Assembly (NCBI GenBank): GCA_019240525.1
Contig: JAFAYE010000001.1
Location: 655,300 to 719,299, forward strand
DNA: 64,000 nt
DNA from: Candidatus Eremiobacterota bacterium
GTDB lineage: Bacteria > Vulcanimicrobiota > Vulcanimicrobiia > Vulcanimicrobiales > Vulcanimicrobiaceae
Direction: 5' to 3'
Shown: positions 51,922 to 58,489 of the stretch, one piece after another
Layout of the letters: each line of letters opens with the position of its first letter
Position numbering within the stretch: position 1 is the first letter of the stretch
Made by a program: the position numbers and the translations under genes
Notes under the pieces: generated by a model
What the model was told of the DNA's origin: nothing
Databases searched by the model: none
Seen by the model: the letters and a program-made list of their open reading frames with translations, nothing else

Positions 51922-52019
51922 TCACCAATGGTTAAGGCTTTTCGTTTCGGTTTCGCCCAACTGAGGCCCGAGTACAGCGGGCGGCACCCTCAGACAAGAG
52001 CGTTACGGCTGCCGGACAA

Positions 52020-53798
52020 TCACGAGCGGCTCGCGAGCCATTCGAATGCCGCTTCTACTTCTTCTTTCGTGCAGGCTTGGGTCGAGCCGGCGTTGCGCAG
52101 GGCGGCGTCGACGAGCAGCATGGCGGCGTCGGTCGTTAGGAGCGGCGCGTTTTGTGGGCCGCCTTGTTCGGCGGCGGTGCGTTGCGCCTTCCAACCTTCT
52201 TTCGCGACGAGCGCGGCGACGGTGGCGACGCGTTTGGCGCTGCCGTGGCGGCGGTCCCAGAGCAGATCGGCGATGGTATCGCTTGCGTAACCGGCCTGGA
52301 GAATGTGCTGGATCTCGAGCGGCGTGGCGCCCAGATGCAGCAGCGTTTGCAGTTCGGGGACGGCGATCGCAGTCACCTGATGCGTCTGGAGTTCTTGCAG
52401 CAGTTCGGTTTCGTCGGAAAACGCCGGACCGATCAACGCGCTATACTGCGCGGCGTAAGGTTCGCGGAACTTTGAGGCTTCGAGCGCGTCGGGCTGCGTC
52501 ACGACGCTCTTCGCGGTCTTACATTCAAGCGTGAGGCGATAGCCGAGCGGGCCGAGGATCGCGTCGGCGATGCCGTCGGGCTGTTCGTATTGGCCGAGAT
52601 GCTGCGTGAGGAAGCCGAGATGCGCGAACGCATCGCAGACGGCGGCTTCAAACGCGGCGGGATTGTCGCCGGTCGCCGTGGCTTCCAGGCGTTCGCAAAG
52701 GGCATCGGCGGCTTCATCTTCCGGCGTTGACGCGGGCGCGACGATGTCGGGCCAGTCGTCGGGCGGTTCGTTGATGCGGAAGCGGCGTTGCGCGTCTTGG
52801 AAGATCTGCGGCTTGCGCCCGTGGCCCAGCTGACGCGCGATATATTCGATGAGGTTGGTGTAGACGTACTTGCGCGTGGTGTTGGGTGGCACTAAATTGT
52901 GCGCGAGGGCGTCTTTGAGCAGCTCGTCGGCGTCGCGCGGTTTGCCGTCTTCGAGGATTTCGATTGCGGCGGTGATGACGCGGCCGCGCGGCGCGGGCGT
53001 GGTGCTTTCGGCCAGCGGGCGATCGAGCGGCGAGCTTTGGTTTGCGATGATGGCGAACTCGTGCGCGAAGACATCACCCTTCGATTGCAGCCGTTGCGGG
53101 AGATCGTCCATCGAGATGGCCGATGCGGCCGGCATGGCGCCGAGTTCGTCCCACGCGATCGGCGCCGCGACGGTGAGTCCTTCGCCGCGCAGGCAATACG
53201 GTACGGCACTGAAGCGTCCGGCGGCGTTGCTGGAGACGTGGACGTGCACGCGGTTGTCGTGGTGCGTGTTGAGCTCGGTGGACAAGAGGTCGGGATGCGC
53301 CGCGCACGCGCGGTTGGCGATGTGGTGAAGCCACGTGCGCAGGGACTTGGCGTGCGGTGCGTCGGCGAGCGGCACCCACAGTGCGATGCCGGTGCCGCCG
53401 TCGAGCATGAGGATTGCTTGTAGTCTTGCGTCGTCGAAGAGGATGGTGCGCATCGCGAGCGCCGCGAGCTTGGTGCGCTCGAACGGGATGTGCGGCTCGG
53501 CTTGGAGCAAGATGCGCGCAAACTGCAATCGCTCGCGATCCGCCGGCGGCGGGAGCGGCGCCCACGTATGAAATTAGATCGCGTACTTGGCGTGCACGAG
53601 CCAGAGCAGCTTCGTCGCCGTCAGCGGCACGCTGGTAACGTGAAATACACCTTCGGTCTGCAGACCGCCGGGATAGTTGCGGTAGACGACCGATGTTGCC
53701 TTGAGATGCGCTTCGATCAACGGTCCGACGAGACGGTAGTGCGTCAGCACGCGCCCAATCAGCTTCGCATCGGCCGCCACACCGGACAGCTCTTGCAT
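52020..53798 (-). pseudogene. LigD-primase-like domain fused to winged helix and PD-(D/E)XK nuclease, interrupted by stop codon
   Basis: Read as one frame it would encode 592 residues, but codon 75 is TAA. Residues 1-74 (LTHYRLVGPLIEAHLKATSV, YPGG) align with the start of LigD-type archaeo-eukaryotic primase-polymerase domains. After the stop comes FHTWAPL and the rest of that domain (HPDLLSTEL, FSAVPYCLRGEGLTVAAPI). The domain has lost its catalytic residues: DLDPG is replaced by LLQAE, SGGKGLH by DGGTGIA, and the late Asp by VHV. A winged helix (about 265-345) and a PD-(D/E)XK nuclease follow, with D408, E425 and K427 in LTLECKTAK. The C-terminal 502 residues could still be translated from TTG 53528. 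Confidence 0.75.
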
Positions 53799-53884: not shown

Positions 53885-54115
53885 TTACTCGCGCAACCGT
53901 ACCTTCCGCTCACCTAGCTCGAAGCGCTCGTCCTTCCGCAGGTCGCGCATACAAGTCGTGCGCGGCGTTTTGCGGTTCTCGCTCGTCGCGCAAAGTTCGG
54001 GGTCCGATTGAACGAGGCCATTCCAAAGCTCGTCGCTTGAGACGGTCTTTCCGCGAGCGTGTTTCTTTAACCAGCGTTCGGCGGCGTCCGCGAATTTTGA
54101 ACGTCGAGCCATCAT
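53885..54115 (-). CDS. Small winged-helix-like protein of the restriction-modification operon
   Basis: This 76-residue basic protein has SKFADAAERWLKKHARGKTV, SSDELWNGLV, RKTPRTTCMRDLRKDERFEL and ERKVRLRE. The helix-helix-helix-wing order looks like a small winged helix. Its ATG overlaps the restriction-endonuclease stop by 4 nt, so it is the third gene of that operon. With 148 residues the nuclease is small, and this protein could supply its DNA-binding part or act as a control protein (inference). Confidence 0.65.
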   Translation of the reverse strand: MMARRSKFADAAERWLKKHARGKTVSSDELWNGLVQSDPELCATSENRKTPRTTCMRDLRKDERFELGERKVRLRE

Positions 54116-54558
54116 AAAGCCTTTCTGATGCAGAGGTGTAGAAACTCGTCCAGGTCTAAGATTGTTATCTCTCTAGCCCGCGGGATAAATGTTACAATGT
54201 CATCGCCTTTGTAGAAATTCTTTTTGGGGTTATGCGCCCACCCCGGGCCCGCGAGGACGATATACGAGCGTTTGATAGCAGGGTTCGCATCCTTTAAAAC
54301 GAGCATTTTAAGAATCTCGCACGGCACTTTCTCGTCAACGCTGCCGCTGCCGCCTTGCCACTTGACCGATACGTTCACCAGCGTGTTATCCGGCGCGGTG
54401 ACTAAGGTGTCCACGCGCTGGCGCCCACCTCCTAGATTCGGAGAAAGGTATTTCTGTCTAATATAAGCGTATCCGTGCTTCTTGAGGGCCGGAAGCACCG
54501 TAACCTCGAGCGTTTCTCCGCTTGACGACGTAGCGCCGCCGCCAGGAGGAGGCGTCAC
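54112..54558 (-). CDS. PD-(D/E)XK restriction endonuclease-like protein
   Basis: This 148-residue protein from GTG 54558 has a PD-(D/E)XK-like core: ALKKHGYAYIRQKYL, then QRVDTLVTAPDNTLVNVSVK (Asp ... Ser-Val-Lys in place of Glu-x-Lys), SVDEKVPCEILKMLVLKD and SYIVLAGPGWAHN. The GTG overlaps the TGA of the Dam-type methyltransferase gene by 4 nt (GTGA). A longer reading frame upstream is within the methyltransferase gene and is not used. Position and motif indicate a type II restriction endonuclease. The recognition site is unknown, and the small size suggests help from the next gene product. Confidence 0.7.
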   Translation of the reverse strand: MTPPPGGGATSSSGETLEVTVLPALKKHGYAYIRQKYLSPNLGGGRQRVDTLVTAPDNTLVNVSVKWQGGSGSVDEKVPCEILKMLVLKDANPAIKRSYIVLAGPGWAHNPKKNFYKGDDIVTFIPRAREITILDLDEFLHLCIRKAL

Positions 54559-55382
54559 AGGTTTAAGGTCGCTAGCATCTCGCGCACATCCTCGCGGTTG
54601 CCGTCGCACGATATTCGGCGCGGAGCGGCCAGTGTCATTACAGCGAACCCGAGAGAGCGATACATCTGCAAGATACGCTTTGTCGCCTGGTTCGAAGCTA
54701 CGACCGGACCTGAGTGCTTGGCGAGCCACTTGGCAAGCCGTTTCTGGTCCTCAAAGTCAAAACCCCCGGCTGAATACGACGTAAACTCCACGTCATAGGG
54801 CGGATCGGCATAAACAAGGTCGTCGTTCCGTAGAACTAAGTCCGCGAAGTCGCCGCACCGAAAATCGTAGGCTCGGAGGGCGCTACGATATTCCGCAAAC
54901 TCCCTTCCAGTGCGGTACGTAATCACCTTGTAAGAGCCAAAAGGCACGTTGAATAACCCGCTTCCGTTGAAGCGGCAGAGGCCGTTATAGCCGGTGCGAT
55001 TGAGGTAGTAGAACAACGCAGCAGCCTCGGCGCTATCGGCTTTCCCAGCCTCGATTAGCTCATTGAACCGCGAGCGATTGGCGTAGAACGTAGCGCGATC
55101 ATTCTTAAAAGTGACGCCATCGGGTTCGAGCCCGTATTGTAGCCACTTATAGAACGAAATCAGGTGCGGGTTGGAGTCATTGAGGAGCGCTGTCCGAGGA
55201 AGCAGCCCAAGAACGACGGCAAGCCCCCCAACGAACGGTTCCACCAGCCTCCGGCTGGGGTGCCCCCCGCTCCAGATCCGGCAGAGGCGGGGGACCAGCC
55301 AACGCTTCCCGCCCGCCCATTTTAGGGGAGGCGGGAGCGAAGGGGAGGGCAAGCCCGGAAGAACTGAGGCTTTAGCGTACAT
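54555..55382 (-). CDS. DNA adenine methyltransferase, Dam/D12 class
   Basis: This 275-residue N6-adenine methyltransferase of the D12 class (Dam, DpnM) has the AdoMet-binding start PLKWAGGKRWLVPRL (19-33), EPFVGGLAVVLGLL (48-61), LNRTGYNGLCRFNGSGLFN (127-145) and the catalytic D193-P-P-Y196. Dam-type enzymes often methylate GATC but the target must be tested. It heads a three-gene operon with the nuclease and the small winged-helix protein, all joined by 4-nt overlaps. Together they look like a complete type II restriction-modification system. Confidence 0.92.
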   Translation of the reverse strand: MYAKASVLPGLPSPSLPPPLKWAGGKRWLVPRLCRIWSGGHPSRRLVEPFVGGLAVVLGLLPRTALLNDSNPHLISFYKWLQYGLEPDGVTFKNDRATFYANRSRFNELIEAGKADSAEAAALFYYLNRTGYNGLCRFNGSGLFNVPFGSYKVITYRTGREFAEYRSALRAYDFRCGDFADLVLRNDDLVYADPPYDVEFTSYSAGGFDFEDQKRLAKWLAKHSGPVVASNQATKRILQMYRSLGFAVMTLAAPRRISCDGNREDVREMLATLNL

Positions 55383-55769: not shown

Positions 55770-56438
55770 TCAGGCTAATCGTCGAAACACGAACAGATGT
55801 TCATGGGCAATGCGTACGAGACGGCCTCCGTACGGTGTGCTCAGAGATCGAGTATTGTGCTGGATTTTAATGATCACGTCGACCAGCTCACCTGGCGCGA
55901 CGCTTGTAACGACCTGAGGCAAATCGTAGTAGCGGCGGTCCTTCCGCCACGATCCGATAAGTACGCCGTAATGCCCGAGCGGGCGCAGCGCCTTGTATGC
56001 GTTTTTCAGCACTGCTCCTAGCATTTTTGAAAAAGCCGGAAGATCAGCCCGCGCCGAAGACAGATCGGACGAATGCACAGCAGTCCCCCATTGGTGCCCG
56101 GAATAAGGGATCATTCCAGCATAAGGCGGATGAATCCAGATGGTCCCCGCTGGGCTGCCGAGCTCGCTCATGAGATCGCGCTGCGTCGCGTCGAATCCTG
56201 AACGCAGGTCCAGTCCGACATAAGGAATGGATAGATCAGCTGCAACGTCACGAGCAGTCCCGGACCCTTCCATTGGGTCTACGAACAGGTCGTGGCGCGA
56301 GACATGGTACGTTGCGAGGAAGGCGCGGATGATGTGGCCCGTGCAGTTGCCTCGGTAAGCTGAGTCGCCCCACGGTCCTCGGTTTGGGTATGAGACGATG
56401 CTGGTGGTAAATCGGAAGCGACCCAGATCGTTTAGCAT
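55770..56438 (-). CDS. Orphan DNA methyltransferase (HPPY motif)
   Basis: This 222-residue protein resembles N4/N6-type DNA methyltransferases. It has SYPNRGPWGDSAYRGNCTGH at the start, the AdoMet motif DLFVDPMEGSGTARDVAADL, then GLDLRSGFD and the catalytic IHPPYAGMIPYS (HPPY instead of DPPY or SPPY). LKNAYKALRPLGHYGVLIGS and a final strand complete it. ATG 56438 is chosen, but coding could extend upstream. There is no endonuclease partner nearby. Methyltransferases of this form often come from phages or integrative elements. An IS3 remnant and an IS21 element lie just upstream. Confidence 0.7.
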   Translation of the reverse strand: MLNDLGRFRFTTSIVSYPNRGPWGDSAYRGNCTGHIIRAFLATYHVSRHDLFVDPMEGSGTARDVAADLSIPYVGLDLRSGFDATQRDLMSELGSPAGTIWIHPPYAGMIPYSGHQWGTAVHSSDLSSARADLPAFSKMLGAVLKNAYKALRPLGHYGVLIGSWRKDRRYYDLPQVVTSVAPGELVDVIIKIQHNTRSLSTPYGGRLVRIAHEHLFVFRRLA

Positions 56439-56622
56439 CCTCGCGTTAGTAGCACGGCGACGTTGCCGCGAGCTGTAATAATTGCTGCCAATCTGTTTGA
56501 AACGGAGCCCATGCTGTCCCACTCGGGGGAGGACTCGCTGCAGCGAGGGCTCGGCGGATCCGCTCCAGCCGCTTTGTTCCAAGCCGCTAGGTTCGGATTG
56601 TAAAGTTCCCGGCGTGTCGCCG

Positions 56623-56815
56623 TTAACGCCACGTCCGGTTGGCGTCACCACGGTATGATGCGAGGAGCCGCCGGTACAGCCGAGATGCGAAGACCAAGCC
56701 GTTGTCGCTGCGCACAACCACTCCGGCGTCTCCCAAAGGCAGCACGCCAAAGCGTTTGAGACAAGCATCTTCCAGCGCCCAGACCGCCTCCTGAGCTCGA
56801 CAGTTCTTACTGATG
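56623..56815 (-). mobile_element. IS3-family transposase remnant
   Basis: The minus strand, in a frame ending at TAA 56623, encodes AQEAVWALEDACLKRF, FGVLPLGDAGVVVRSDNGLV and FASRLYRRLLASYRG. This matches the integrase core of IS3-family OrfB around the second catalytic Asp (RSDNGLVF). About 60 residues remain; the upstream part is cut by the left end of the IS21 element, and no matching piece lies on its right side. Confidence 0.75.
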
Positions 56816-56894
56816 TGTTAGCGTCGGAGTAAAATTGACCCACCCCGTCGGTTGAAAATTGACCCACCTAAGCCCTCGGCGAACTACGGTTCGC

Positions 56895-58489
<1,595 letters not shown>

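Follow-up and report, generated by a model that had tools for sequence, protein, structure and literature searches.

What could a polymerase domain that no longer polymerizes be doing in front of a nuclease? This question is raised by a gene on the reverse strand (52020..53798, -) of a 64,000-nucleotide stretch of a Candidatus Eremiobacterota genome, hereafter the window, in which translation, Pfam matches and alignment to 21 other homologues identify a LigD-type PrimPol domain without catalytic residues, a HARE-HTH-like winged helix, a PD-(D/E)XK nuclease and a C-terminal helical region, in a copy that is itself decayed. Both HARE-HTH restriction endonucleases (REases) and PD-(D/E)XK enzymes are already known; their combination with a catalytically dead PrimPol of the LigD type was found in none of the papers or family libraries searched.

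A polymerase fold without its catalytic residues

The PrimPol domain occupies 53034..53765 (-). The LigD_Prim-Pol model PF21686 matches the part of the window protein that follows an in-frame stop (E = 3.6e-22), as well as 22 of 22 family members (best 6.2e-33), and TIGR02778 scores 37.8 bits, far below its cut-off of 214.7. The closest intact relative of the window copy, L091 (58% identity), was modelled with AlphaFold2 (pLDDT 88), the pTM of 0.57 leaving the arrangement of its domains uncertain. The N-terminal part of this model resembles the LigD polymerase structures 5dmu, 2fao and 2r9l (E values of 1e-14 to 1e-15, rmsd 2.5-3.2), its fold matches being the NHEJ polymerases of archaea, mycobacteria and Pseudomonas. 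The PrimPol fold that the first-pass annotation had recognised in the letters is thus borne out by the profile and by the model.

The same annotation had claimed that every catalytic segment is replaced. Residues were tallied, with the LigD residue roles taken from PMC8656161 and PMC3898472, in 36 domains of the family and compared with 18 domains of the LigD type; nearly all of the latter come from the same genomes as the family, and any given site is covered by 16 to 17 of them. Former motif I (53502..53522, -) reads FARILLQ in place of the FDxDP of LigD, with a hydrophobic residue at the position of Asp137 and a new conserved Arg; this Asp is present in 0/36 family domains versus 16/16 of the LigD type. 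In former motif II (53370..53408, -; MLDGGTGIALWVP), Ala stands at the His178 position and Asp at the Ser172 position, His178 being likewise absent from all 36 family domains and present in 16 of 16 LigD-type domains. Former motif III (53196..53252, -; RVHVHVSSNAAGRFSAVPY) retains Asn231 and has His at the position of Asp227, which is found in one of the 36 family domains versus 16 of 17. Relatives with an active site had been named as the observation that would speak against a dead domain, and the search for them among these 36 PrimPol-like domains did not refute it, so that the replacement is now seen to be family-wide.

The pocket for the 5'-phosphate has also gone. NHEJ polymerases need Asn13, Lys16 and Lys26 at this site (PMC3898472), yet Lys16 is present in 0/36 family domains versus 15/17 of the LigD type, Asn13 is found in none of the 36, and position 26 is Lys or Arg in seven. 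Given this loss, the earlier suggestion that the dead scaffold recognises DNA ends is weakened in the form that concerns the reading of 5'-phosphorylated ends.

A further set of residues is near-fixed in the family and not found in LigD-type domains, namely (in the numbering of the window protein) Arg95 (32/34), Asp146 (30/34), His158 (31/34), Ser197 (32/34) and Gln254 (32/34), and Asn191 is present in 34 of 34 family sequences. These new conserved residues occupy the former active site and its surroundings, a pattern which we read as the probable product of selection for a new function and not of drift. In the tree, the LigD-type domains group together with a support of 1.0 and are separated from the family by a long branch, which is consistent with activity having been lost once only.

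The winged helix and the nuclease

The HARE-HTH-like winged-helix domain is placed at 52746..52982 (-). The Pfam HARE-HTH model has no direct match among the members, and the link to HARE-HTH runs through one distant relative, L113, with which the family profile A3 aligns continuously through helix and nuclease (positions 24-237 of 358); the first 74 residues of L113 are HARE-HTH (6.5e-21) and its next domain is Mrr_cat. The gene adjoins what appears, reading the neighbour by eye, to be an HKD/SF2-helicase gene. In PMC10853773, HARE-HTH REases located near HKD-SF2 helicases are proposed to read modified bases, and the HARE-HTH and REase combination is presented, citing Aravind and Iyer 2012, as a modification-dependent endonuclease. 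With these enzymes the family shares a winged helix N-terminal to the PD-(D/E)XK domain, a profile match spanning both domains (that with L113) and restriction-like neighbours, whereas it adds the C-terminal helical region and the dead LigD-type PrimPol, which is either part of the same protein or encoded by a linked gene. The DpnI-type and wH-fusion type IV enzymes (PMC11037411) similarly combine PD-(D/E)XK with a winged-helix reader, but in the family the helix is HARE-like instead of DpnI-type and the dead polymerase is additional.

The PD-(D/E)XK nuclease domain, of the Mrr/FokI type, lies at 52431..52661 (-). Mrr_cat is detected in 17 of 22 members, with a best value of 3e-7 in the relatives, although the match is weak in many of them and in the window copy (0.034). 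When the L091 model is compared by Foldseek, FokI is matched with an E value of about 7e-8, and HindIII, MspJI and AspBHI come next, all of these being weaker than the polymerase matches. FokI and the other PD-(D/E)XK restriction nucleases share with the family the fold of the cleavage half and a weak phmmer match, whereas the overall TM score is low (0.2), the recognition part is different and no conserved cognate methyltransferase accompanies the family. The catalytic residues are in place, the Asp of the PD motif (PDG, 52575..52577, -) being present in 22/22 members in alignment A1, and the Glu and Lys of the E-C-K motif (52518..52526, -) in 22/22 and 21/22, respectively (Asp430, Glu447 and Lys449 in the numbering of an intact paralogue from the same genome). 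The retention of D, E and K had been claimed from the window copy, and a lack of conservation had been named as the finding that would count against the proposal; the relatives instead extend the claim to the family.

At two loci, L114 and L115 (genomes G451 and G149), the same nuclease is joined to a GHKL ATPase, called by a family search on L114, to which L115 is nearly identical, and lies beside a DNA methyltransferase, which makes these loci another possible restriction system. Given the HARE-HTH of L113 and the GHKL ATPase of L114 and L115, the nuclease is a module that accepts different front domains.

Distribution of the family and its fused and split forms

A scan of 149 Candidatus Eremiobacterota genomes returned matches in 39, with 1 to 9 per carrier genome, and several divergent copies may occur in the same genome, as in G122, which has up to nine matches. 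When the alignment was used as the query of a profile-guided scan, GTDB contigs yielded 33 loci. Most of these carry the name Candidatus Eremiobacterota or WPS-2 in their titles, or are MAGs, and many are contigs of the phylum scan; a single-sequence search of the GTDB contigs with the paralogue gave no matches. One of these loci is from Holophagales and consists of the nuclease region only, and 396 genomes sampled from the phylum of this genome contained three proteins related to the nuclease half, in whose matched ORFs there is no PrimPol. The restriction-like L113, L114 and L115 belong to this phylum. No family relatives were found in the phage, plasmid and viral-contig collections, and Foldseek against viral structures returned only partial AEP-like or nuclease-like matches. 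The family has so far been seen only in one phylum, in scans that relied on patterns and sampled a single further phylum and that do not prove confinement.

Intact homologues, which the first-pass annotation had proposed to look for, do exist in related genomes, and they also lack the catalytic motifs. Among the 41 family loci that were read, 21 are fused and intact, eight are split with both parts at full length, five keep the nuclease intact but have no full PrimPol, and seven are without a full nuclease (broken or at a contig end), counts which indicate that decay is common in the family. Put differently, a full-length dead PrimPol accompanies the nuclease at 29 of the 34 loci with a full nuclease ORF. 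The split loci break between PrimPol and HTH and show both gene orders, the PrimPol preceding or following the nuclease, once divergently. This equivalence of the fused and split forms is the best evidence that the PrimPol and the HTH-nuclease act together. The intact nuclease genes of L060, L066 and L072 have no detectable PrimPol partner, and modules are duplicated at L058, L052 and L045, where two PrimPol-like domains or two nucleases are adjacent.

Genomic context

The window gene had been described as lying directly beside a restriction-modification operon, and this description holds. Upstream of the decayed gene, at a distance of 86 bp, is a 75-aa ORF (53885..54115, -), the last gene of the operon, preceded by a PDDEXK_11 nuclease (54112..54558, -; PF20472, E = 5.7e-13), which is the likely partner, with overlapping start and stop codons, of a D12 class N6-adenine methyltransferase (54555..55382, -; PF02086, E = 3.8e-42; PADLOC oMTase, 1.2e-72). 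The whole (53885-55382, -) is a compact operon of overlapping start and stop codons and looks like a complete small R-M system. The D12 methyltransferase was considered as a partner of the family nuclease and ruled out, as it has its own PDDEXK_11 gene in the overlapping operon. Further on, a 365-aa ORF (55770-56867, -) weakly resembles a type II methyltransferase of PADLOC (9.5e-10) and matches nothing in Pfam, and IS21-type genes, an integrase-core remnant and IstB (57211-58489, +), are found next to the R-M operon.

Across the family, 9 of 89 Cas1 or DNA-methyltransferase matches lie within 10 kb of a member, versus 0.80 expected (P ~2e-7 under a uniform, independent model). A housekeeping control, AA_kinase, gave 3/113 versus 1.18 expected, and the excess of defence markers relative to this control is a modest one, of about fourfold (Fisher p = 0.035). 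ResIII was dropped as a defence marker because it matches housekeeping helicases in every genome. The PADLOC matches among the family neighbours include Cas1, SoFic, a type III methyltransferase and Cas3, and the window protein itself matches no catalogued component of PADLOC 2023, in which the members have only weak REase_II matches (best 0.0048). No neighbour is conserved across the family loci, the best shared cluster besides the family itself covering four of them, and no methyltransferase is a regular neighbour of the kind expected of a type II R-M system with a cognate methyltransferase. The placement in defence islands that had been proposed is upheld in part: there is an enrichment, yet no defence gene is recognised near most of the copies and no partner gene is conserved. 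On this genomic evidence, a defence association of the family is likely. A parallel is offered by the CRISPR-associated PrimPol (CAPP), an AEP-family domain in a defence setting with a fold match of about 3e-4 to 1e-3, although the CAPP structures are active primase-polymerases and the family is devoid of the catalytic residues.

Proposed function and alternative explanations

The architecture, the loss of the polymerase residues, the conservation of the nuclease residues, the equivalence of fused and split forms and the pseudogene status of the window copy are established by sequence. From these we infer DNA cleavage, a role in defence and a recognition role for the dead domain. The preferred reading, to which a probability of about 0.55 may be assigned, is that of a restriction-like nuclease family in which the dead LigD-type domain would serve as a DNA-reading or activation module that licenses the cleavage of invading DNA. 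The HARE-HTH-like winged helix, perhaps with another domain, would recognise a modified or otherwise foreign feature of the DNA, and the Mrr/FokI-type domain would cut the DNA once this feature is recognised. The dead PrimPol, fused in front or encoded by a neighbouring gene, would add a further reading or activation step, and it and the HARE-HTH-like domain could take their signal from a DNA modification, from a structure or from a bound nucleotide. The patchy, multicopy and frequently decayed state of the family is in keeping with this reading.

More tentatively, the family may be a system against invaders that is specific to this phylum. An NHEJ-type polymerase would have lost its activity on a single occasion, its active site would have been rebuilt as a pocket sensing DNA or nucleotides, and the resulting sensor would have been coupled to a HARE-HTH-like nuclease, either by fusion or with the two as separate subunits.

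The main rival would be nucleotide sensing followed by suicide cleavage, in which the dead pocket senses a nucleotide, or an intermediate of replication or repair, that is made during infection, and triggers non-specific cleavage of the DNA of host or phage in the manner of abortive infection. The new residues around the former active site, the fused and split sensor-effector pairs, the FokI-like fold of non-specific cleavage and the frequent decay of a multicopy family would all suit such a mechanism, but the HARE-HTH-like domain points to the direct recognition of DNA and no antitoxin-like neighbour is conserved, and this explanation appears unlikely.

A role in DNA repair is probably less likely still. 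Here, the family would supply an accessory end-processing nuclease of NHEJ or gap repair, with the dead polymerase docking on breaks or on Ku or ligase. The N-terminal domain is indeed nearest in fold to LigD/Prim-PolC and belongs with it as a sequence family (PF21686, TIGR02778), and other carriers have LigD-type domains. In the genome of the window itself, two separate and genuine LigD-type PrimPol systems (L003 and L004) lie away from the window gene; both include a ligase and one of them also Ku, the ligase and Ku genes being recognised from their sequences rather than by family search. The family differs from LigD/Prim-PolC, however, in having lost the catalytic Asp and His positions as well as the pocket for the 5'-phosphate, which is required by NHEJ polymerases (PMC3898472). 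Neither ligase nor Ku genes recur as neighbours across its loci, and the patchy distribution of 0-9 matches per genome with frequent decay also counts against a repair role.

The window copy and its decay

The third alternative concerns the window copy alone. Its frame (53798-52020, -) has 592 codons and a single in-frame TAA at codon 75 (53574..53576, -), where the relatives have a sense codon in the same column, and translation confirms this interruption as it had first been reported. The first-pass annotation had left a choice between a recent pseudogene and the separate production of two pieces, one starting at the ATG and one at a TTG at 53528, and it had missed a second lesion, at the 3' end. 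The frame stops about 20 residues earlier than in the six near relatives compared, and what is left of the conserved C-terminal tail, EPLVIVRQP followed by a stop, lies out of frame at 52003..52032 (-), corresponding to the DALVILRPP and DSLVILRPP of the relatives.

Relative to L091, the window copy has a dN of 0.36 and a dS of 0.98, which indicates that its sequence was constrained for most of its history and that the breakage is recent. Given the two independent lesions, the TAA and the loss of the C-terminal frame, the copy is a recent pseudogene. An intact paralogue of 631 aa, with 41% identity to the window copy over the shared length, is located at C1:2695080-2696972 of the same genome (2.8 Mb, 97% complete, in 5 contigs).

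A still functional copy, expressed as two proteins (from the ATG to codon 74 and from the TTG restart) or by readthrough, with a TAA that is regulatory or a sequencing error, is improbable. The frame does remain open for 517 codons downstream of the TAA with the nuclease motifs intact, and base errors in the assembly are possible, but the independent damage at the C-terminus stands against it, as does the place at which natural split forms break, between PrimPol and HTH, some 190 codons further on. A natural split at codon 75 is rejected on the place of these breaks, and the two-piece option is not supported.

Implications

Finally, a selfish or mobile (homing-like) nuclease that has captured a polymerase domain is highly improbable, as neither the phage, plasmid and viral collections yielded relatives nor do the neighbour clusters have a common flanking gene, however well the several divergent copies per genome (up to nine matches in G122) and the patchy distribution might suit such an element. 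To our knowledge, dead polymerase folds acting as sensors of immunity are little documented. The existence of many divergent intact members, fused and split, together with clear candidate residues, makes the question of a polymerase scaffold used as a recognition module directly testable. If the preferred reading, a restriction-like family guided by a dead polymerase domain, were confirmed, it would represent a defence family seen so far only in a phylum whose defence repertoire has hardly been studied.
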